Source: a virus. Taken from it: a DNA stretch of 30,960 nucleotides. The DNA lies in the IMG/VR virus record IMGVR_UViG_3300007276_000184, positions 1 through 30,960 of that record; one strand, 5' to 3'. A program made the position numbers and the translations under genes. This document shows, in pieces, positions 11,339-30,620 of the stretch. The notes beneath the pieces are model-generated. The model searched no databases and was not told where the DNA came from. It worked only from the letters and a program-made list of their open reading frames with translations. Each line of letters opens with the position of its first letter. Position 1 is the stretch's first letter.

Positions 11339-11806
11339 TTGAGAATTAATAGCAAAATATACCCAGCAGATTTTAATAAACCATATGGAACACTTGGAAT
11401 AAAGTTCCCTATGAATGCCCTTCAGTCAAATAATGTTTCAGGGGTGTTTAACATGTCATATACTACAGAGGATCAAGCAATAAGTAATTATGTCAATTTA
11501 CTTATGACTAAAAGTGGTGAACGTTATATGCAGCCTAATTTTGGCGTGGGGTTATGGTTTTATATATTTGAATCAAATACTGCAGAACACCGAATATTGT
11601 TGAAAAACGATATCGAATTACAAGCTGATAGGTGGCTGCCATATATAGTAAATCATGATATCCAAGTGGAAGATCAAGCAGATATAGATGATCAAGGACA
11701 TGGTTTGAATATTAGAATTGTATTTTCTGTAACAGAGCACGGAGCAAATAAGACGATGACGATATTTACAGGGGCTGAACGGTCGTTAAACATAGAGATT
11801 ATATAA
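11339..11806 (+). CDS. 25: baseplate wedge subunit gp25 (GPW/gp25 family), TTG start
   Basis: A 155-residue protein of the gp25/lysozyme-like wedge family, part of the inner baseplate and sheath initiation. Family features are AISNYVNLLMTKSGERYMQPNFGVGLWFYIFE around residues 49-80 and the final beta part LNIRIVFSVTEHG. The start is TTG immediately after the previous TAA. The next in-frame ATG is about residue 25 (MNALQS) and would remove conserved N-terminal sequence, so TTG is preferred. The stop overlaps the gp6 ATG (TAATG). Confidence 0.85.
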   Translation: MRINSKIYPADFNKPYGTLGIKFPMNALQSNNVSGVFNMSYTTEDQAISNYVNLLMTKSGERYMQPNFGVGLWFYIFESNTAEHRILLKNDIELQADRWLPYIVNHDIQVEDQADIDDQGHGLNIRIVFSVTEHGANKTMTIFTGAERSLNIEII

Positions 11807-13709: not shown

Positions 13710-14030
13710 ATGAAGATAATAAATGAAATTAAAAGGCAGATTTTAAACGAGGCAGATGTTAGTCAATATATTTCTATGGCAAAAAAACATGACTGGTTTT
13801 ATTTTTATTCAGACTCAAACCAAGTTTATGAGCGAGGCAGAGAGTCTGAAGATAAATTGAAAAAGATATATGACGGTCTATCAGATGATGATAAAATGAC
13901 TGCAGGTAAATGGTTCCAAGATTTTTATAAAACAGACGATGGATCGAGTCATTCAAATGCGGTAAAAAAATGGGATGTTGAACGTGATGGAGTTGACGGA
14001 TTTGATGGGGTACATTTAAGTATAAAGTAA
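13710..14030 (+). CDS. small protein with candidate capsid-targeting N-terminus, 106 aa
   Basis: The first 15 residues (MKIINEIKRQILNEA) form a basic amphipathic helix ending in L-N-E-A. That fits the (L/I)-x-E cleavage rule of the T4 prohead protease gp21, as seen in T4 internal proteins. The rest is a charged, aromatic-rich soluble domain (KKHDWFYFYSDSNQVYERGRESE; AGKWFQDFY) without known family. It lies between baseplate genes but could be an internal head protein. The targeting idea is inference from the pattern shared with the genes at 25999 and 28865. Confidence 0.6.
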   Translation: MKIINEIKRQILNEADVSQYISMAKKHDWFYFYSDSNQVYERGRESEDKLKKIYDGLSDDDKMTAGKWFQDFYKTDDGSSHSNAVKKWDVERDGVDGFDGVHLSIK

Positions 14031-22139: not shown

Positions 22140-23693
22140 ATGGCAGTACCATTTTTTAATAACAATAGCGGCAAAACGGGCGGCGGAATGTCTTCACAAA
22201 CTTCTGGATACGATGCAAGGATGGTTCTTGATGCAAGTATCATTGCAGCATTAACTTCTTCTGGGTATATATTGACACCCACTAGTTATAACGCCTCTAC
22301 AGATTTTGGACAATTCCAACCAATTAGAAAAACTGTAATTAACGGAAAAACAATTCCAGCATTACAAGATTCTGCAGGTAATGTGTATGTCATAGACGAA
22401 CGTAATGTGATTTATTTATTGGAAAAATCCAAAGTGAATCCGAATACTGGCACTCCACTTGGCAGCGCACCTCCGAGCAGCGGTCCTGCGGCTCCTCAAG
22501 GACGTACACCAGTCATGAGTGTCGGATTACTAGATCCAAATTGGAGTGGAAACGGCGGCGGAATTATACCTCCAGCCCCTCCTGGTGGAACTATAGGATC
22601 TGGAAAGGTATACACACAATTTGCGATTGATGATATAGTGCCTAATCAACAAGAAGTTGTAACAAGGGCATTGTGGAGTAATAATGTTGGTAATTTGACA
22701 ACATTTTATACTAGTTCAGCAGAAACAGCAACACAAAAGAGATATTATTACGAAATTTGGAATAGTGGATCTCAAGGCGATTGCGGTGCACAACCACAAT
22801 TTAGTATTGCGTACGGAAACAAATTAGGATCTGGATCTAACGATGAAGGCGGCCAAATTGAAGATACACCTTCAAGAGCGATTTATGGGCAGAATAGATT
22901 ATTGTGCTTAGATCAAGATGCTGAATCATTTACAATCAACGGAACAACTACAGATTCAATATATGTTATAAATGTTAATAGAGCTCGTATGAGAGAATAT
23001 CTCGACGAAGGTAATATAGAAATCAATTTAGCACATCTATCAGGATCTGAATTTATCGCAGGAGGAGGAGACGCTGATGCACACACTGGTAGTAATGTTA
23101 CATTAGCAGGCGACGGTTCAGTATTAAGACTTATTGACGATTCATCGTTAAATCCTGCAACAATTATGCAGAGTGGTGAAGTTTACAATATTGTATCAGG
23201 ATCTATTGAAGATGGTGTTTATAATTCGTCATCTCCAAATGTATACGGATTATTATTTAGAAGGAAAGGTATAATTATTCTTGATGCAACTAGATTAGAT
23301 GTATCAGCATCATTCGCGACAGTAACAGGTAGAGAAGTACCAGGCGATAATCCAATGAAATTATTTACAGCTATGTCAGGAGCGGCGCAATATAATGATG
23401 GTTCAGGAGATCCATTAGGATTTGCAGGAAGGGGAGCAGAAAAGGTAAAGAGTACACATTATTTCGTCAGGGCGAAAAATGCAGAATACAACTTTAGTAA
23501 CAATCCGACATTTGTCACAGGTTCAGAAGGTGATTTAAGGCATCCGAGTATGTATAGCGATCCTAAATCATATATAACGACTGTAGGTTTATATAATCCT
23601 AGTAAAGAATTGGTAGCAGTTGCGAAATTATCTCAAGCTCAACAAAAATCATTTACTAAGGAAGCTCTAATTGAAGTAAAATTAGAATTTTAA
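22140..23693 (+). CDS. fibre-like structural protein 1 (shared C-terminal module), 517 aa
   Basis: Residues 1-95 are a small N-terminal domain; about 100-152 is a Pro/Gly-rich linker (GSAPPSSGPAAPQG; GGGIIPPAPPGG). From SGKVYTQFAIDDIVP (about 153) to the end it is paralogous to the next gene: a GLLFRRKGIIIL strand pair, SGDPLGFAGRGAEK, NFSNNPTFVTGSEG and the closing ITTVGLYNPSKELVAVAKLSQ (about 478-498). This closing motif occurs in structural proteins of many T4-like marine phages. A surface-exposed trimeric fibre or baseplate appendage is inferred. No catalytic motif seen. Confidence 0.6.
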   Translation: MAVPFFNNNSGKTGGGMSSQTSGYDARMVLDASIIAALTSSGYILTPTSYNASTDFGQFQPIRKTVINGKTIPALQDSAGNVYVIDERNVIYLLEKSKVNPNTGTPLGSAPPSSGPAAPQGRTPVMSVGLLDPNWSGNGGGIIPPAPPGGTIGSGKVYTQFAIDDIVPNQQEVVTRALWSNNVGNLTTFYTSSAETATQKRYYYEIWNSGSQGDCGAQPQFSIAYGNKLGSGSNDEGGQIEDTPSRAIYGQNRLLCLDQDAESFTINGTTTDSIYVINVNRARMREYLDEGNIEINLAHLSGSEFIAGGGDADAHTGSNVTLAGDGSVLRLIDDSSLNPATIMQSGEVYNIVSGSIEDGVYNSSSPNVYGLLFRRKGIIILDATRLDVSASFATVTGREVPGDNPMKLFTAMSGAAQYNDGSGDPLGFAGRGAEKVKSTHYFVRAKNAEYNFSNNPTFVTGSEGDLRHPSMYSDPKSYITTVGLYNPSKELVAVAKLSQAQQKSFTKEALIEVKLEF

Positions 23694-23705: not shown

Positions 23706-25730
23706 ATGATAGATCCAGGATCACGTGAATTTAGGGATAGTCAACAGCCTACATATCGACCACCTCCAGTCTCTTTAGGTCCAGACCCAGTAATGGTAGC
23801 AAGTGGTGGCCCTACATTAGGATTTCCAGCAGCGTCACCAGGACCAGATCCTACATTAGTAGCAAGTGGAGGACCTACATTAGGATTTCCAACAGGTACA
23901 GATGGCGGACCTGTACGGAATATACGCGACACTGATGGTCCAATAAAACAAAATCCAATTCCGCCTCCTGGATATGACGGACCTATAAAACAGATTCCAG
24001 AGCCACCTCCGAATTACGACGGTCCTATAAGACAAACACCAAATGATCCAGGTCCGACAGTGGAGCCTCCGTTAGTTTTTCCACCGTCTACAAGTGGACC
24101 AACTCCACCTGTCCCGCCTATATATACTGCAGATCCAATTCCGAATAATCCATGTATAGATTTACACAATTACGGTCATGTATTATGGGAGAATAAATTT
24201 CAATGGAGTGCTGAAGTTTCTTCTTTTTTAAGTCAGCCAAGTGTACATAAGGTTGCAGCATTTAGTGATATTGCTCTCGAGTGGGTTGTCAGTGAACGCA
24301 ATAAAGAACTTTGGCCTACAACATATGGAGTAGGACCTGGTGGACGACAATATAAAATAATATGTACTGGATATTTCATCAGAGATTTTTTATGTAAAGT
24401 TAAAAGCACACGATACTTTAATTTAAGAAGTGTAAATGTAGCATTTGCTAAATTCAAGTTTACTGATTCTAGATTACCTGGAGAATATTATATCTCATCG
24501 TCAGGTAAAATATGTAGATTGATACTAATCACAGATCCAGACAATCCAGTGTATCCTGATTTAGGTGATGAAGTTGACCCACCATATGATGATACAATAC
24601 CAAACGGACCATCAGGACCTAATTTAGGATCAGGACAGGTTTATGCACCAATATATTCAGGCGACATAGTAAATTGTCCAGAAGTGGAGACAGGACCGTT
24701 ATGGTCACAAGAAGCGAAATATTTAGCAACACCAATATCAGCTAGTTTTGCATCCGATACAGGATCTGCAAATTATTGCGTCGGCGTACACAATTTACCT
24801 CCAACCGATCCGTGTTCAGAACTCCAATATAGATGTATTTATGCAGATTATGAAGGCAAGGGTGACAAGGATTTAGGCGGTAGAGATGACGAGACTTTAT
24901 CCAAGGCGATGTATACACAATATTCGCATATATTACTCCCTAAGGGCCAAGATAAATTCATTATTAATGGCATTGAAGAGGATTATGTTTATATAATTGA
25001 TGTAAAACGTGATAGGTACAAGCAGATAATGGATCCAGGCAATTGGCAATTATCATTATACTCATTAAATATACAAACACCGACAGCATCAAATGTGCCA
25101 AATGATATTGTTAGGGACGCATTATATGACAGAGGTACTGTAATTGACTCTAGTAGGTTTATAACACAATCTATAAACTTTACAAATAAATCATGGGATA
25201 TCATCCCAGGAACAATTGAAAATGGTCCATATATAACACCTAACGATACAGAATTGTCAGGATCAAATACAGGGTCATTAGGTATCTTTTATCCAAATCA
25301 CGGAATGATTGTACTCGCTGGCTCAACATTGGATGTAGATTTCGGCTTTGAAACAAATAGGAATGTTGAAGTTGATGGTTTGAATGCATTAAGGTTATAT
25401 GAGTCATTGATAAGTTCAGCAGTCGAGGGAGATACAGATTCGTCAGGAGATCCATTAGCATTTTGGGGCAGATATGCTGAAATGAAATACAACAAAATGT
25501 ATTTTGTTAGAGTTAAAAATCAAATATTTAATTATACAAATAATCCTACATTTACATCAGGGTCGGAAGGCATTATACTAGACACCTTAGCTAATCAAGA
25601 GCGCGCATATTTCACATCCATTGGGCTATATAACCAATCAAAAGATCTATTAGCTGTTGGTAAGGTATCACAGCCAATGATTAGTGCATGTAATAAAGAA
25701 CGATTATTCAAAGTCAGAATAGGGCATTAA
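23706..25730 (+). CDS. fibre-like structural protein 2 with Pro-rich repeats, 674 aa
   Basis: Residues 1-150 are Pro/Gly-rich and repetitive: two 21-residue units (GPDPxxVASGGPTLGFP) and three 14-residue units (DGPI[KR]Qx-P). A unique domain follows (about 152-290, with paired Cys), then from SGQVYAPIYSGDIVNC (about 308) the module shared with the previous gene, ending TSIGLYNQSKDLLAVGKVSQ (about 637-656). SGDPLAFWGRYAE and FNYTNNPTFTSGSEG match the paralogue closely. The Pro-rich arm suggests an extended stalk. Tail-fibre function is inferred. Confidence 0.6.
   Translation: MIDPGSREFRDSQQPTYRPPPVSLGPDPVMVASGGPTLGFPAASPGPDPTLVASGGPTLGFPTGTDGGPVRNIRDTDGPIKQNPIPPPGYDGPIKQIPEPPPNYDGPIRQTPNDPGPTVEPPLVFPPSTSGPTPPVPPIYTADPIPNNPCIDLHNYGHVLWENKFQWSAEVSSFLSQPSVHKVAAFSDIALEWVVSERNKELWPTTYGVGPGGRQYKIICTGYFIRDFLCKVKSTRYFNLRSVNVAFAKFKFTDSRLPGEYYISSSGKICRLILITDPDNPVYPDLGDEVDPPYDDTIPNGPSGPNLGSGQVYAPIYSGDIVNCPEVETGPLWSQEAKYLATPISASFASDTGSANYCVGVHNLPPTDPCSELQYRCIYADYEGKGDKDLGGRDDETLSKAMYTQYSHILLPKGQDKFIINGIEEDYVYIIDVKRDRYKQIMDPGNWQLSLYSLNIQTPTASNVPNDIVRDALYDRGTVIDSSRFITQSINFTNKSWDIIPGTIENGPYITPNDTELSGSNTGSLGIFYPNHGMIVLAGSTLDVDFGFETNRNVEVDGLNALRLYESLISSAVEGDTDSSGDPLAFWGRYAEMKYNKMYFVRVKNQIFNYTNNPTFTSGSEGIILDTLANQERAYFTSIGLYNQSKDLLAVGKVSQPMISACNKERLFKVRIGH
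23778..23891 (+). repeat. 63-bp coding repeat (two copies)
   Basis: Copies start at 23778 and 23841 and encode a GPDP...VASGGPTLGFP unit. Synonymous differences between copies (GGTGGCCCT versus GGAGGACCT) show the protein sequence is being kept while DNA drifts. Confidence 0.85.
23934..24059 (+). repeat. 42-bp coding repeat (three copies)
   Basis: Units at 23934, 23976 and 24018 encode DGPI(K/R)Q followed by Pro-rich spacer (x-P-x-P-P-P-x-Y in the first two), in the stalk of fibre-like protein 2. Confidence 0.85.
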
Positions 25731-25731
25731 A

Positions 25732-25986
25732 ATGGAGAAAATACTAAAAAATTCGTATAGGGAACTAATTATTGAAAACTCAATAAATGAAAAGTTTTTT
25801 AATGCGAATCCCCAACAAACGATGAAGGAGTTGATGGATCTGCGAGCAATGCTTAAAGATGCTAATGACATGAAACAATTAGCTGTTGGAATCCAAGCAT
25901 TATATGCTGAAAGTCCAAAGAAACTCGGAGAAATTACAAGGATGGTATCTGGGTTGAATACTGCAATACTTAAAATGCAACAATAA
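25732..25986 (+). CDS. small helical protein, 84 aa, possible targeted virion protein
   Basis: Starts 1 nt after the previous stop. The N-terminus MEKILKNSYRELIIENS is a basic amphipathic helix like those of the genes at 25999 and 28865, though its I-I-E-N only partly fits the gp21 cleavage rule. The rest is helical (TMKELMDLRAMLKDANDMKQ; KLGEITRMVSGLNTAILKMQ). Located between two fibre-like genes. Function unknown. Confidence 0.6.
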   Translation: MEKILKNSYRELIIENSINEKFFNANPQQTMKELMDLRAMLKDANDMKQLAVGIQALYAESPKKLGEITRMVSGLNTAILKMQQ

Positions 25987-25998
25987 TAAAGAGACAAT

Positions 25999-26265
25999 AT
26001 GAAAACACATATATTAGCGGAAAATTACAAACGGCTATTTAAAGAATCTTTAAAAGAGTCTGACAGTGATTCTAGTTATGATGAGCTTGAACTTGCAATA
26101 GAAGAATTGAAAGCACTTGTCAAAAAATGGTCTGCAGGATTACAAAATCGGGTTGATTTTAGCGCAATTGCAGAAGAAGAATCAGCTTCAGAAATGCGAG
26201 ACAATTATTATGAAGTGATTAATGATCTATTTGATGAACACTTATATGATCTCTTTGAAGATTAA
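25999..26265 (+). CDS. small acidic protein with reused N-terminal tag (HILAENYKR), 88 aa
   Basis: The first 18 residues (MKTHILAENYKRLFKESL) are nearly the same as in the gene at 28865, while the remaining sequences differ. The tag has L-A-E and, further on, L-K-E-S, both fitting the (L/I)-x-E prohead-protease rule. The body is acidic and helical (DELELAIEELKALVKKWSAG; NDLFDEHLYDLFED). A capsid-targeted internal protein is the working idea; there is no known family. It ends 16 nt before the third fibre-like gene. Confidence 0.65.
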   Translation: MKTHILAENYKRLFKESLKESDSDSSYDELELAIEELKALVKKWSAGLQNRVDFSAIAEEESASEMRDNYYEVINDLFDEHLYDLFED

Positions 26266-26281
26266 ATAAAAACATAACTGG

Positions 26282-27973
26282 ATGGCAATACCTACTACGT
26301 TCGCTCCTATAAAAACACAAGACTTTACGTTGACGCCAATAAAGGTGAACAAAAAGTTTCAGTTTAACCAGGACGAATTGGAAACCACAGCTAGTGGATA
26401 TCATTTAGTTGAAGGGTATTATACAAGTTTATTAACACCTGTTGGTGCAAGGAAAGCAGCAAATGATCCTATCAATTTAGTTGACGGAACATATAAACAT
26501 ATTATTTGGAAGCAGATAAATCATATGTATTATGCAGATCCTTATAACCCATTCAATACATTTGAACATCATAATAAAAGATATGCGTATAAAGAATTGA
26601 ATATGACAGCGTCATATCTTTCAATACCGTATCTTGATTATGGAGAAAAGATAAAACCAGGTTCAGTGGTTATTACAAATACTGACACAGGCATTATATT
26701 AAATGACGATGGTAACGGTAATTTATACGACCCAGCGATTGAGCAAGAATTCGATACTGGAGATTTTCCAGGATATAACCGATATAATATAGTAGGATAT
26801 TGGGGCTTTAACCAAGAGTTTAGAAATTTCAAGTACAATTATGGCATAGTCGATAGCGGCAAATATGAATATGCTGCATATCAATTTTCTCCAGGAAATG
26901 TTCCGAGTATAATACACAATACCAAATTCGGTCCAGGATTTGAATCAGGAAGTACACCAATTGGATTATCAGCGCAATGGGATAGTAATTCTGATGGTAG
27001 TAATTTCGGGTGGATGAAAACACCAAATAACGACTCATTTAATTTTGATTCAACAGAAGGGTTTACAATATCGTTTTGGATTAGACCAGAAACGTCAGAT
27101 GATCCTGGAGCAGTCATATCTAAAAATGGTACTGTATTTAGAAATAAATTAGGAACCCATGACAGGATTCTAAATTCTGGACAAATTACAACAGACAAAT
27201 ATATAAGTAGTTCATATGTAGATGAACCAACTGATATTTATCCATTCGATGTCACATATGATTCTGGTAGTTTGATTGTAAAGCGGAGTGATGGTAGTAG
27301 AACAGCAGAAATAACTGGTTCATTAACTGATGGGATTTGGCAACATATAACTGTAGTCCGCTCATATGTAGCGCCAGAATACAATTTGGGATTATTTGTA
27401 GATGGGACATTGGTTGATTCAGCACCAGACCCAACACGTAATCCAATCAATAAGCATGAATTGATGTTTGGCAGTAGAAACCAACATGGATTGGATTCAT
27501 TTTCAGGATCAATAGATGAGGTTAGATTTATTAACAGGTCTCAAGACGATTTAGATGCTGATTATTATCTTCAAGCTGCAAATCAAGACCTAACATTGAA
27601 CACATCAGTTGTAGGAAATGTGTTTTATCGCCGCGGGAATATTGTAATATCACCACTCAATCCAAAATATAATGATGTATTTAGTGGATCATTCAATGTT
27701 GAATATAGAGGTACACATACAATTTATCAATATGAGATTTTATGTAGGATTAAAAAGGGTGATTTCAATTTAACACGTAATGTGACAGCATTACAATCAC
27801 CAAAATCAGATTTATTAATTAATGAAATGACTGGCTCATTATTAGCACCATACTTCACTACAATTGGTATGTATAATGACAAGGGACAGTTAATGGTCAT
27901 AGGGAAAATGGGTCAAGCTATACAAGTGCGCTCAGATGTTGATGTGAATGTCGCAGTTAGATTTGACGGGTAA
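26282..27973 (+). CDS. fibre-like structural protein 3 with LamG/concanavalin-like domain, 563 aa
   Basis: Residues 1-220 are an attachment region rich in Tyr/Asn. About 228-425 is a LamG-type lectin sandwich: GFTISFWIRPE (about 260), GIWQHITVVRS (about 350), LGLFVDGTLVD and GSIDEVRFINRSQ (about 408). The C-terminus shares with the two upstream fibre-like proteins a GNVFYRRGNIVISP strand pair and the closing TTIGMYNDKGQLMVIGKMGQ (about 526-545). LamG domains usually bind glycans, so host-surface binding is likely. The ATG has no strong Shine-Dalgarno. Confidence 0.65.
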   Translation: MAIPTTFAPIKTQDFTLTPIKVNKKFQFNQDELETTASGYHLVEGYYTSLLTPVGARKAANDPINLVDGTYKHIIWKQINHMYYADPYNPFNTFEHHNKRYAYKELNMTASYLSIPYLDYGEKIKPGSVVITNTDTGIILNDDGNGNLYDPAIEQEFDTGDFPGYNRYNIVGYWGFNQEFRNFKYNYGIVDSGKYEYAAYQFSPGNVPSIIHNTKFGPGFESGSTPIGLSAQWDSNSDGSNFGWMKTPNNDSFNFDSTEGFTISFWIRPETSDDPGAVISKNGTVFRNKLGTHDRILNSGQITTDKYISSSYVDEPTDIYPFDVTYDSGSLIVKRSDGSRTAEITGSLTDGIWQHITVVRSYVAPEYNLGLFVDGTLVDSAPDPTRNPINKHELMFGSRNQHGLDSFSGSIDEVRFINRSQDDLDADYYLQAANQDLTLNTSVVGNVFYRRGNIVISPLNPKYNDVFSGSFNVEYRGTHTIYQYEILCRIKKGDFNLTRNVTALQSPKSDLLINEMTGSLLAPYFTTIGMYNDKGQLMVIGKMGQAIQVRSDVDVNVAVRFDG

Positions 27974-28002
27974 ATTTAGAAAAATACAAAATAATTTTAA
28001 TT

Positions 28003-28521
28003 ATGGATATAGATTTAGAATTGGACAAGTTAACAGGAGATTTAGAGTCTGCGGTTAAAAATGCAACTACATTAGTGGCTAAGAAACAAAATGAAGCCAT
28101 ATTGACGAGCGCATTGGGATTAGTATTATCTGGACCGTTCATGATAAAAATTGTAGGTAATACAATTAATAAGGCTAAGAAATTAATATCAAAATCAGGT
28201 GATAGTTCTAAAATAGGTGATGCAATTGTTGCATTTGGTGATAAAATGCATCATGTTACTGAAAAGCCGTTTAAATTATTAGCTAAAACATTCACAAAGG
28301 ATCCTAAAAAACAAGCAATATTTGCCCAAGCTTTAATGGCTGGAATAATCGCAATATTATTGGTTGATAGCGGGCTATCATTTGCTAAATATGCACAAAA
28401 GATGAATATCAAATCGTCAATGTTGTATGGTGCAAAATCAGCAATTAAGAGCACTGAGTTACGTGGAATGATTGCGGAGCTTGGATTATTTATTAAACAA
28501 ATATTAACAAAGGTAATATAA
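28003..28521 (+). CDS. hypothetical membrane protein, 172 aa
   Basis: Two hydrophobic segments are visible: about 32-50 (ILTSALGLVLSGPFMIKIV) and about 105-122 (AQALMAGIIAILLVDSGL), separated by basic amphipathic helices (INKAKKLISKSGDSSK; KPFKLLAKTFTKDPKK). No signal peptide or known motif. It could be a membrane-associated infection protein or a head/tail component such as a pilot-like protein; the sequence does not decide. Confidence 0.55.
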   Translation: MDIDLELDKLTGDLESAVKNATTLVAKKQNEAILTSALGLVLSGPFMIKIVGNTINKAKKLISKSGDSSKIGDAIVAFGDKMHHVTEKPFKLLAKTFTKDPKKQAIFAQALMAGIIAILLVDSGLSFAKYAQKMNIKSSMLYGAKSAIKSTELRGMIAELGLFIKQILTKVI

Positions 28522-28545
28522 TAACAAAATAACAGGAAACAACTT

Positions 28546-28842
28546 ATGAAAGTAGAACAAGTAAAACGTATTGTGGAAAATGTCGTCCGTAAGAAACTAA
28601 AACAACTACATGAAAATTTTGATTTCATCGACGAAGATGGATGGGATGAGGATTCAATAGCTAATACAGGTCTATTGGAAGTATTGAATAGATTTAGTAA
28701 AATAGAATACGAAATTAAAAATTCCCCGCGAGGTGTGTATGCAGTTTCAGGAGACACTGTACAAGATTTAGTTACTGACTTGGAGGAACTTAAGGAGGAT
28801 TTGGAAGACGCAATTAACGATTTACAATCACCGCCTCGTTAA
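28546..28842 (+). CDS. small protein with basic N-terminal helix, 98 aa
   Basis: The N-terminus MKVEQVKRIVENVVRKKLKQ is a strongly basic amphipathic helix, followed by L-H-E-N and an acidic body (FIDEDGWDEDSI; LVTDLEELKEDLEDAINDLQ). It has the same basic-tag/acidic-body layout as the genes at 25999 and 28865, without their exact tag. Function unknown. Confidence 0.6.
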   Translation: MKVEQVKRIVENVVRKKLKQLHENFDFIDEDGWDEDSIANTGLLEVLNRFSKIEYEIKNSPRGVYAVSGDTVQDLVTDLEELKEDLEDAINDLQSPPR

Positions 28843-28864
28843 ATGATACATTAAAATACATATT

Positions 28865-29164
28865 ATGAAAAAACATATTTTAGCAGAAAATTACAAACGA
28901 TTTTTCAAGGAAAATTTATTGGAAGAATCTGGGGATTTTGATATAGTATTAATGGATGATCCAATCATTGTAGATCGATTCAATGAATTGCTTGATGATG
29001 AATCGCGAACTCATTATACAGAGGGAGACGATTATGAATGGATTATAGGCCGTGGGGACGATTACCCAAACACATTAGTTATATTATCTGATACAATGCA
29101 AAAAGATGATAAATTTATTAAAATTATCCGAGCTGAGTTAGAAGATGAAGAAATAGATTATTAA
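28865..29164 (+). CDS. small acidic protein with reused N-terminal tag (HILAENYKR), 99 aa
   Basis: Starts MKKHILAENYKRFFKENL, matching the gene at 25999 in 14 of the first 18 residues, including nearly the same codons. Then L-E-E-S gives a second (L/I)-x-E-S site. The body is unrelated to 25999: acidic with short strands (FDIVLMDDPIIVDRFNELLD; NTLVILSDTMQKDDKFIKII). A targeting tag on a different cargo is the best reading. The stop lies 3 nt before the nuclease gene. Confidence 0.65.
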   Translation: MKKHILAENYKRFFKENLLEESGDFDIVLMDDPIIVDRFNELLDDESRTHYTEGDDYEWIIGRGDDYPNTLVILSDTMQKDDKFIKIIRAELEDEEIDY

Positions 29165-29167
29165 ATA

Positions 29168-29629
29168 ATGAGTCATTGGTTTTACAATAATAAAGAAGTT
29201 ACAGAAGTCCCCGAGGATGCATTTGGATTTGTATATATGATAACAAATACAAAGTCTGGTAGGAAATATATAGGTAGAAAGTATCTGCAGTCTACACGCA
29301 GGAAAGCACTAACCGCTCAGCAGAAAAGAGACGGTAAGAAGCGGCGTACAAGAGTCACAACAGAAAGTAATTGGAGAACGTACACTGGATCATCCAAGCC
29401 ATTACTTGCCGACATCAAGGAGCTTGGAAAGGATCATTTTAAATTTGAAATTCTCATATATGGGAATTCAAAGGGACAAGTGAATTATTTAGAAATGAAA
29501 TTCCAATTCATTAATGACGTCACATTAGACCCATTATATTATAACGATACGATAGGGAGCGGTAAATTCGCCACCTTGAAAGACTCTGATTTACTTCTTG
29601 AAAATATTCAACAAACTTTTTCAAAATAA
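29168..29629 (+). CDS. GIY-YIG-like endonuclease, 153 aa
   Basis: The GIY-YIG core reads GFVYMITN (residues 20-27) and GRKYIGRKYL (31-40); a Lys/Arg-rich insertion follows (TRRKALTAQQKRDGKKRRTR, 43-62), then NWRTYTGSSKPL and the probable catalytic Glu109 in NYLEMKFQ. This looks like a free-standing phage nuclease of the type often found in T4-like and cyanophage genomes, either a homing endonuclease or a host-DNA-degrading enzyme. The key residues are present, so activity is plausible. It starts 3 nt after the previous stop and lies just before the primase promoter. Confidence 0.7.
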   Translation: MSHWFYNNKEVTEVPEDAFGFVYMITNTKSGRKYIGRKYLQSTRRKALTAQQKRDGKKRRTRVTTESNWRTYTGSSKPLLADIKELGKDHFKFEILIYGNSKGQVNYLEMKFQFINDVTLDPLYYNDTIGSGKFATLKDSDLLLENIQQTFSK

Positions 29630-29678: not shown

Positions 29679-30620
29679 ATGGCAAATACCACTGGTGTAA
29701 TAAAACTATTAGAGCGGCTGATTGGGCAGTCTTCACTTAAGAGCAAAGGTAATTACGCCTTTCGTTGCCCCTTTTGCCATCACGCTAAAAAGAAATTAGA
29801 GATACACCCAGAGTTACAACATTGGAATTGTTGGACGTGTGGTACTAAAGGTAAAAGTCTATTTACATTATTAAAGAGGCTTAATGCTAAGAAGTATTTT
29901 TATACTGAATTACAAGATCTTGTACCAAAAGGTAAGAGGCAGTTTTCATTTCCACAAGGAACAACTCCAGATAAAATTTGTAAATTACCTGACGAATACA
30001 TTCCGCTATGGAAACCTGAATCGCAAGATTTTTATTGGAAACGGTGTATTGAATATTTACGAGGTAGAGGTATAAGTAAACAAGATATTTTAAAATACCG
30101 AATCGGGTATGCGACTGATGGTAAGTATAAAGATATGATCATCTTTCCTAATTTTAATAAACTGGGACAGTTAACATATTTTACAACTAGAACCTTTTCA
30201 AATAGAAATTCTATAAAATTTGTCAATCCACCATTTAGTAGGGATGTCGTTGGATTTGAGTTACAACTAAATTGGGACTTGCCTATTGTATTAGTAGAGT
30301 CTGCATTAGATGCGATGGTTGTAAGGAGAAATAGCAGTCCGCTATATGGTACAACTTTACCTAAATCCTTAAAGGAACAAATTTTAGAAAATAAAGTACA
30401 AGATTTATATTTAGCACTAGATCCAGATGCATTACGCAAGTCAATTAAATATGCGGAATATTTCATGGGTTTTGGTATTAACGTATATTTTGTAGAGATA
30501 CCTCAAAATACAGATCCTAATAAATTAGGTCACACTAAGATGTGGGAATTAATAAAGTCAGCTGAATGTATGACTGATAATAAGTTATTTGAATATAAAA
30601 TACAAGATTTGATTGCATGA
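29679..30620 (+). CDS. 61: DNA primase, T4 gp61-like
   Basis: Synthesises RNA primers for lagging-strand replication with the phage helicase. A zinc-binding domain is formed by C30-x2-C33 (FRCPFCHH) and C51-x2-C54 (WNCWTCGTKGK). The Toprim core has the acidic strand VLVESALDAM (Glu207) and LALDPDA (Asp248/Asp250). Length (313) is near T4 gp61 (342). The last bases overlap the next gene's ATG (ATGA). It is the first gene after promoter P4, as expected for a replication gene expressed before the virion genes. Confidence 0.85.
   Translation: MANTTGVIKLLERLIGQSSLKSKGNYAFRCPFCHHAKKKLEIHPELQHWNCWTCGTKGKSLFTLLKRLNAKKYFYTELQDLVPKGKRQFSFPQGTTPDKICKLPDEYIPLWKPESQDFYWKRCIEYLRGRGISKQDILKYRIGYATDGKYKDMIIFPNFNKLGQLTYFTTRTFSNRNSIKFVNPPFSRDVVGFELQLNWDLPIVLVESALDAMVVRRNSSPLYGTTLPKSLKEQILENKVQDLYLALDPDALRKSIKYAEYFMGFGINVYFVEIPQNTDPNKLGHTKMWELIKSAECMTDNKLFEYKIQDLIA

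Follow-up and report, generated by a model that had tools for sequence, protein, structure and literature searches.

A reused N-terminal leader on unrelated small proteins of T4-like phages as a probable prohead-targeting sequence

Two small genes of an uncultivated phage share an N-terminal leader, MK[TK]HILAENYKR[LF]FKE (hereafter the ENY leader), in front of different bodies. We consider it highly probable that this is a prohead (capsid) targeting leader, T4-like in action and cleaved by a gp21-type protease. Head targeting is proposed because the leader is reused, an [LIVM]xE motif follows it, tagged genes lie in the gp20/gp21 neighbourhood, and bodies are exchanged with a leader of T4 pattern. 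In the proposed mechanism, the short basic amphipathic leader would bind the prohead core during head assembly, an S77 (gp21-type) protease would release the body inside the head by cutting after the [LIV]xE that follows the leader, and the bodies would stay there, many of them entering the host together with the ejected DNA. We infer binding, cleavage, packaging and delivery from sequence. With moderate confidence, we expect that the two proteins described here are delivered to the host. The packaging of small cargo proteins had been suggested by a sequence-only reading of this DNA, and that idea is upheld in part: the reused leader, the motif excess, the S77 protease of relatives and the exchange with the T4-patterned leader support it, and one insecure member (25732) and the acidity of the bodies count against it.

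The window, that is, the whole stretch of DNA analysed, is a 30,960-base viral contig (IMGVR_UViG_3300007276_000184) in which T4-type baseplate proteins were matched; the products of the genes at 11339 and 11806 match baseplate wedge subunits. The 11806 protein is 47.5% identical to a protein of Microcystis phage Mel-JY01, whose gene order parallels that of the window, and 41% identical to a protein of Flavobacterium phage immuto. A GIY-YIG-type protein is encoded at 29168 and a primase at 29679. The 31-kb window contains no head genes and no gp21-type protease, and the head region of the phage falls outside it; the link of the window genes to the head runs through relatives. The T4 late promoter TATAAATA occurs 5 times in the window versus 8 expected, and enrichment was not seen. 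Features are listed in Table 1.

Table 1. Leader-bearing genes, leaders and related features in the window and in phage immuto (a hyphen within a sequence marks the putative cut)
Feature	Position	Strand	Details
Tagged small gene, 88 aa, acidic body	25999..26265	+	starts MKTHILAENYKRLFKESLKESDSD
Tagged small gene, 99 aa, acidic	28865..29164	+	starts MKKHILAENYKRFFKENLLEESGD
ENY-type leader, residues 1-20	25999..26058	+	MKTHILAENYKRLFKESLKE; predicted end LKE-S
ENY-type leader, residues 1-20	28865..28924	+	MKKHILAENYKRFFKENLLE; candidate cuts LLE-E or LEE-S
Probable leader-bearing gene	28546..28842	+	leader 28546-28614, MKVEQVKRIVENVVRKKLKQLHE
Probable leader-bearing gene	13710..14030	+	start MKIINEIKRQILNE-ADVS; slot behind gp6
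Doubtful member	25732..25986	+	MEKILKNSYRELIIENSINE-K
Neighbour gene	28003..28521	+	product resembles the C-terminal part of a Mel-JY01 protein whose gene immediately follows that of the major capsid protein
Variable slot	26282..29629	+	flanked by the gene at 26282 and the GIY-YIG/primase genes
immuto first reused tag, four genes	NC_055915 1806, 103806, 117634, 118635		each protein continues with [LI]xE
immuto second reused tag, two sites	NC_055915 25061, 111675		LSEQFRRMQKLAGIITE

The claim that the genes at 25999 and 28865 carry the same N-terminal tag on differing bodies was confirmed: both genes are present, and their bodies fall into separate clusters with no BLASTP match to each other. 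The codons of the shared start had also been called near-identical, which is overstated, as 40 of the first 48 nucleotides and 9 of 16 codons are identical; five of the seven differing codons are synonymous. The similarity starts at the ATG because the sequences upstream of the two genes are unlike each other. The (L/I)-x-E motif reported behind the tag was found in both proteins. The 25999 protein has no Pfam, PHROG or phage-collection match. The 28865 protein has no Pfam match; for its body, matches were found to phrog_23411 and to an untagged protein of 76 aa from Cellulophaga phage phiST. The structure of the 28865 protein was predicted with low confidence (mean pLDDT 44). No ART domain was detected in either protein. 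The bodies have net charges of -15 (25999) and -18 (28865), and the pI values are 4.4 and 4.2, respectively, compared with 8.9-9.5 for the internal proteins (IPs) of T4. The body of the 28546 protein is also strongly acidic.

The tag was sought in 2.9 million viral contigs with degenerate DNA patterns, and chance matches were removed. At least 50 distinct tagged sequences were kept, including the two of the window, and those long enough to cluster formed at least 30 body clusters with no between-cluster BLASTP match at E<1e-3. Restriction of the tag to two genes by simple duplication, the alternative raised in the sequence-only reading, was therefore rejected. The motif L/I/M-x-E-N-Y/F-x-R/K was found away from the N-terminus in 2 of 3,192 distinct proteins of related loci, and in one of these two cases the tag has an in-frame ATG upstream of it. 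The tag is thus far beyond chance, given this rarity and the number of unrelated bodies. In the contig L138 (7673-8200), an upstream in-frame ATG opens a reading frame in which the ENY tag comes after about 70 residues; either that start is wrong or the gene is a fusion. When leaders from the same contig have diverged, synonymous codon changes are in most pairs more numerous than nonsynonymous ones, and the two leaders of L306/L375 are identical at 44 of 45 nucleotides, which indicates recent copying in that case. The ENY tag and its MNLQENY form had no meaningful match in the cultured-phage collection, nor had a leader-A/GEPLPT composite (a query pieced from several loci), and the tag pattern had no match in bacterial and archaeal genomes.

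The [LI]xE-type motif behind the reused leader exceeds what shuffling produces. Among the matches listed, [LIVM]xE starts at residues 13-36 in 27 of 30 clusters; when residues 13-40 were permuted in 5000 trials, the mean was 13.0 and 27 was never reached. This control matters because LxE motifs readily arise by chance in Glu-rich helices. After the putative cut, different residues occur (A in 7, S in 3 and G in 1 of the 27 counted, among the matches listed), a point against the proposal.

The genomic setting of tagged genes in relatives points to the head. Among the matches listed, 25 tagged sequences are within 6 kb of head genes, 18 are near gp32/UvsX-like genes, 7 are near tail genes and 8 are unplaced, counts that are approximate because some alternative starts were counted twice and related contigs are redundant. 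In many contigs, the portal gene gp20 and the S77 prohead protease gene gp21 flank the tagged gene. In L008, the window's own tag type is directly upstream of a Peptidase_S77 match (7.4e-27), with portal (PF07230) and Gp23 (PF07068) matches close to the tagged gene. Two tandem genes of L306, with the near-identical leaders MNTLTENYKRFFKENLNE-A and MNTLTENYNRFFKENLNE-A (ending LNE-A) on different bodies, stand immediately before the protease gene gp21, and L380 contains several tagged genes in 5.4 kb. The gp21-type protease that the sequence-only reading had asked for was thus found beside tagged genes in relatives, and an S77 protease is present in Mel-JY01, immuto and the tagged contigs. Contigs related to the window place a tagged gene elsewhere, between the homologues of 8555 and 9365 in G013 and between those of 21423 and 22140 in L024, and some of the near-tail tagged genes sit in contigs syntenic with the window.

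A second leader, leader A, connects the ENY leader with T4. Its consensus, MIKLKDLLxE, fits the T4 capsid-targeting pattern (hydrophobic residues at 4 and 7, [LI] at 8, E at 10), in which residues 4 and 7 matter for targeting and 8 and 10 for processing (PMC9026906). Of 1,075 non-redundant small proteins, 74 begin with this pattern, which occurs 0-5 times per start offset from 9 to 40. Among these 1,075 proteins, an [LI]xE motif whose E falls exactly on residue 10 was found 91 times versus 28 expected from column frequencies; this positional test is independent of the leader patterns, which we wrote ourselves to set the ENY and leader A classes, so that the class counts are not independent of that choice. 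The leader A pattern was detected in 61 of 873 proteins of T4-like loci and in 4 of 219 control proteins, an imperfect control set in which three of the four matches come from the contig L398, with T4-like leaders such as MKTFQEFITE-A. In L398, this leader precedes a short motif that is also found behind MIKLKELISE (60% over 43 aa, leader included). The T4 spacing occurs in 0 of 25 window proteins, and the ENY leader is without it. The ENY leader and leader A occur with shared or related bodies: L046/L042 are 95% identical over 61 aa, L047/L042 60% over 258 aa and L035/L023 58% over 150 aa, part of this homology being a REFGDPLPT module adjoining the leader. Because the same or related bodies are exchanged between them, the ENY leader and leader A would do the same job. 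A second module, REFGDPLPTFEDVMKKHQ or similar, was also observed behind different leaders (L013 180, L015 333, L023 7951, L026 13254 and L308 3489), often followed by an xNE motif.

In 35 major capsid proteins of the group that were inspected, QL[VI]xE is shared at about residues 55-70, with A or S as the usual next residue, which is consistent with cleavage after [LIV]xE. This site was read directly from the sequences, as the T4 cleavage column was put in the wrong place by automatic alignment to gp23 of T4; the T4 counterpart is FLTE-A. Phage immuto (NC_055915), which infects Flavobacterium sp. LMO8 and has an S77-type protease, carries a tag of its own, of FLxENKLT type, on four different proteins (MENTFDLKKFLVENKLTNNSRLLE; MENFDLKKFLVENKLTTNSKILKE; MENFDLKKFLVENRLTYNSKLINE; MADNFNLRSFLTENKLTKNAQLLKE), and a second reused tag at two further sites (Table 1). 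In about 40 loci, the scaffold-like proteins whose genes precede the capsid gene have a conserved C-terminus of KLAG/KLAN type, for example RFKKLAGLIK. Since this segment resembles the second leader of immuto, leaders may mimic a scaffold docking segment, which we offer as a lead.

Three other window genes had been proposed as tag bearers; 28546 and 13710 are plausible members of the leader-bearing set and 25732 is doubtful. The leader of 28546 clearly resembles MKITKTRIKRIVENVVRRKLQE, with which a head-cluster gene of L008 begins. In L143, the slot of 13710 is occupied by a different gene with a similar start, MKLKKIIYQYLNE-VTQS, and no match was detected between the 13710 protein and the protein of that slot. 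The gene at 25732 was set aside, because residues 4-82 of its protein could be aligned with residues 64-136, in the interior of a relative's protein; the start of 25732 may be a domain rather than a leader. The window's tagged genes lie in a variable slot, which contains other small leader-bearing genes in relatives; in L142 and L143, the genes of this slot have homologous bodies (E 2e-31) and different leaders. The product of the neighbour gene at 28003 is 25% identical to its Mel-JY01 counterpart (residues 6-172 versus 75-240, E=3e-10).

Two observations concern other genes of this region. The tail-region proteins encoded at 22140-23693 and 23706-25730 match the same proteins in relatives, one of which is also weakly matched by the product of 26282-27973. 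Because these matches are common to them, the three products may be paralogues. The best PHROG family of the 29168-29629 product is labelled NAD synthetase; this label is probably wrong, because the product also matches several homing-endonuclease families and the GIY-YIG protein of Mel-JY01.

Comparison with T4 clarifies what the ENY leader resembles and what it does not. T4 IPI, IPII and IPIII (MKTYQEFIAE-A) likewise consist of a short N-terminal leader on unrelated, small and variable bodies; [LI]xE stands at the leader end, a gp21-type S77 protease is encoded in the ENY relatives as in T4, and IPII and IPIII share one leader, as the tandem genes of L306 do. A conserved capsid-targeting sequence with variable bodies in T4-like phages is an idea already published (PMC3012670, PMC9026906). 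By inspection, however, the ENY leader has no resemblance to MKTYQEFIAE beyond the MK start, and it is therefore described as working like the T4 capsid-targeting sequence, not as its homologue. It is also longer, about 18-26 residues, whereas the T4 spacing is one of 10 residues. ENY bodies are far more numerous and often acidic, whereas the T4 IPs are basic, and ENY-tagged genes often adjoin gp21, whereas the T4 IP genes lie apart from the head cluster. In the giant phage SPN3US, head and ejection proteins inside the head are reported to be processed by the prohead protease (PMC5694885), a likeness to the scheme proposed here.

The position between gp20 and gp21, where many relatives have a tagged gene, is that of gp67 and gp68 in T4. 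This favours another reading, in which head targeting is as described above and the leader docks the proteins as components of the prohead core; they would shape the head in the manner of gp67/gp68 and then be cut up or retained, with no action in the new host. It keeps real weight because the window bodies are acidic, unlike the basic T4 internal proteins, and the sequence of T4 gp67 is rich in D/E; some of the 25999, 28865 and 28546 products may be prohead-core components and not injected proteins. Unlike gp67/gp68, however, ENY-tagged bodies are not conserved but highly diverse and exchangeable, many tagged genes are found away from the head cluster, with replication or tail genes nearby, and related leaders carry effector-like domains. 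We therefore regard this reading as possible, though rather unlikely. It is improbable that the leader docks proteins on the tail or another non-head structure, as might be thought from the place of the window genes among tail genes and from the seven near-tail tagged sequences among the matches listed, some of them in contigs syntenic with the window; tagged sequences near head genes (25 among the matches listed), the exchange with the T4-patterned leader and the [LIVM]xE motif behind the leader argue against it. Copying of gene starts by recombination, with no targeting role for the leader, would fit the L306/L375 pair and is very improbable in view of the at least 30 unrelated bodies, the mostly synonymous differences, the near-exclusive N-terminal position and the motif excess.

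Among 99 leader-bearing proteins, Pfam matches were to Zeta_toxin (10, best 1.6e-18), MPTase-PolyVal (3) and ART-PolyVal (1, 3e-6), with one weak KptA/PARP match under the curated cut-off; the structure of an ART-like leader-bearing protein was predicted with low confidence (mean pLDDT 41). Kinase-like P-loop proteins (L287 2148, L289 2496, L272 2060, L256 11697 and others) start with leaders such as MISLVQLLKE, and in aquatic T4-like contigs several of their genes are close to a primase homologue. T4 Alt and polyvalent-protein domains count among the effectors that are known, or have been proposed, to be injected (PMC5512222, PMC9503650). The leader-bearing bodies of some relatives that match ART-PolyVal and MPTase-PolyVal resemble Alt, head-packaged ARTs and polyvalent proteins in this respect, and differ from them in being small proteins behind a short leader; the tagged bodies of the window are without such a domain. 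IPI of T4 inhibits a restriction enzyme; IPIII that lacks its leader and is produced by the host can still restore infection, which places its action in the host cytoplasm (PMC3012670, PMC9391042).

We lean towards the view that several leaders of aquatic T4-like phages that are unrelated in sequence but interchangeable (ENY, MIKLKDLLxE and FLxENKLT of immuto) form a single code for loading the prohead. The cargo, delivered at infection, would be a large set of proteins with rapid exchange of its members, toxin-like kinases, ARTs and peptidases among them. The repeated tags of immuto, which is in culture, make the idea directly testable. If it is true, new capsid-targeting tags exist besides that of T4, and the leader would serve as a search key, genes that start with it being predicted head cargo. 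Many hypothetical genes of uncultivated phages would then become candidates for effectors of the first minutes of infection or for counter-defence proteins.
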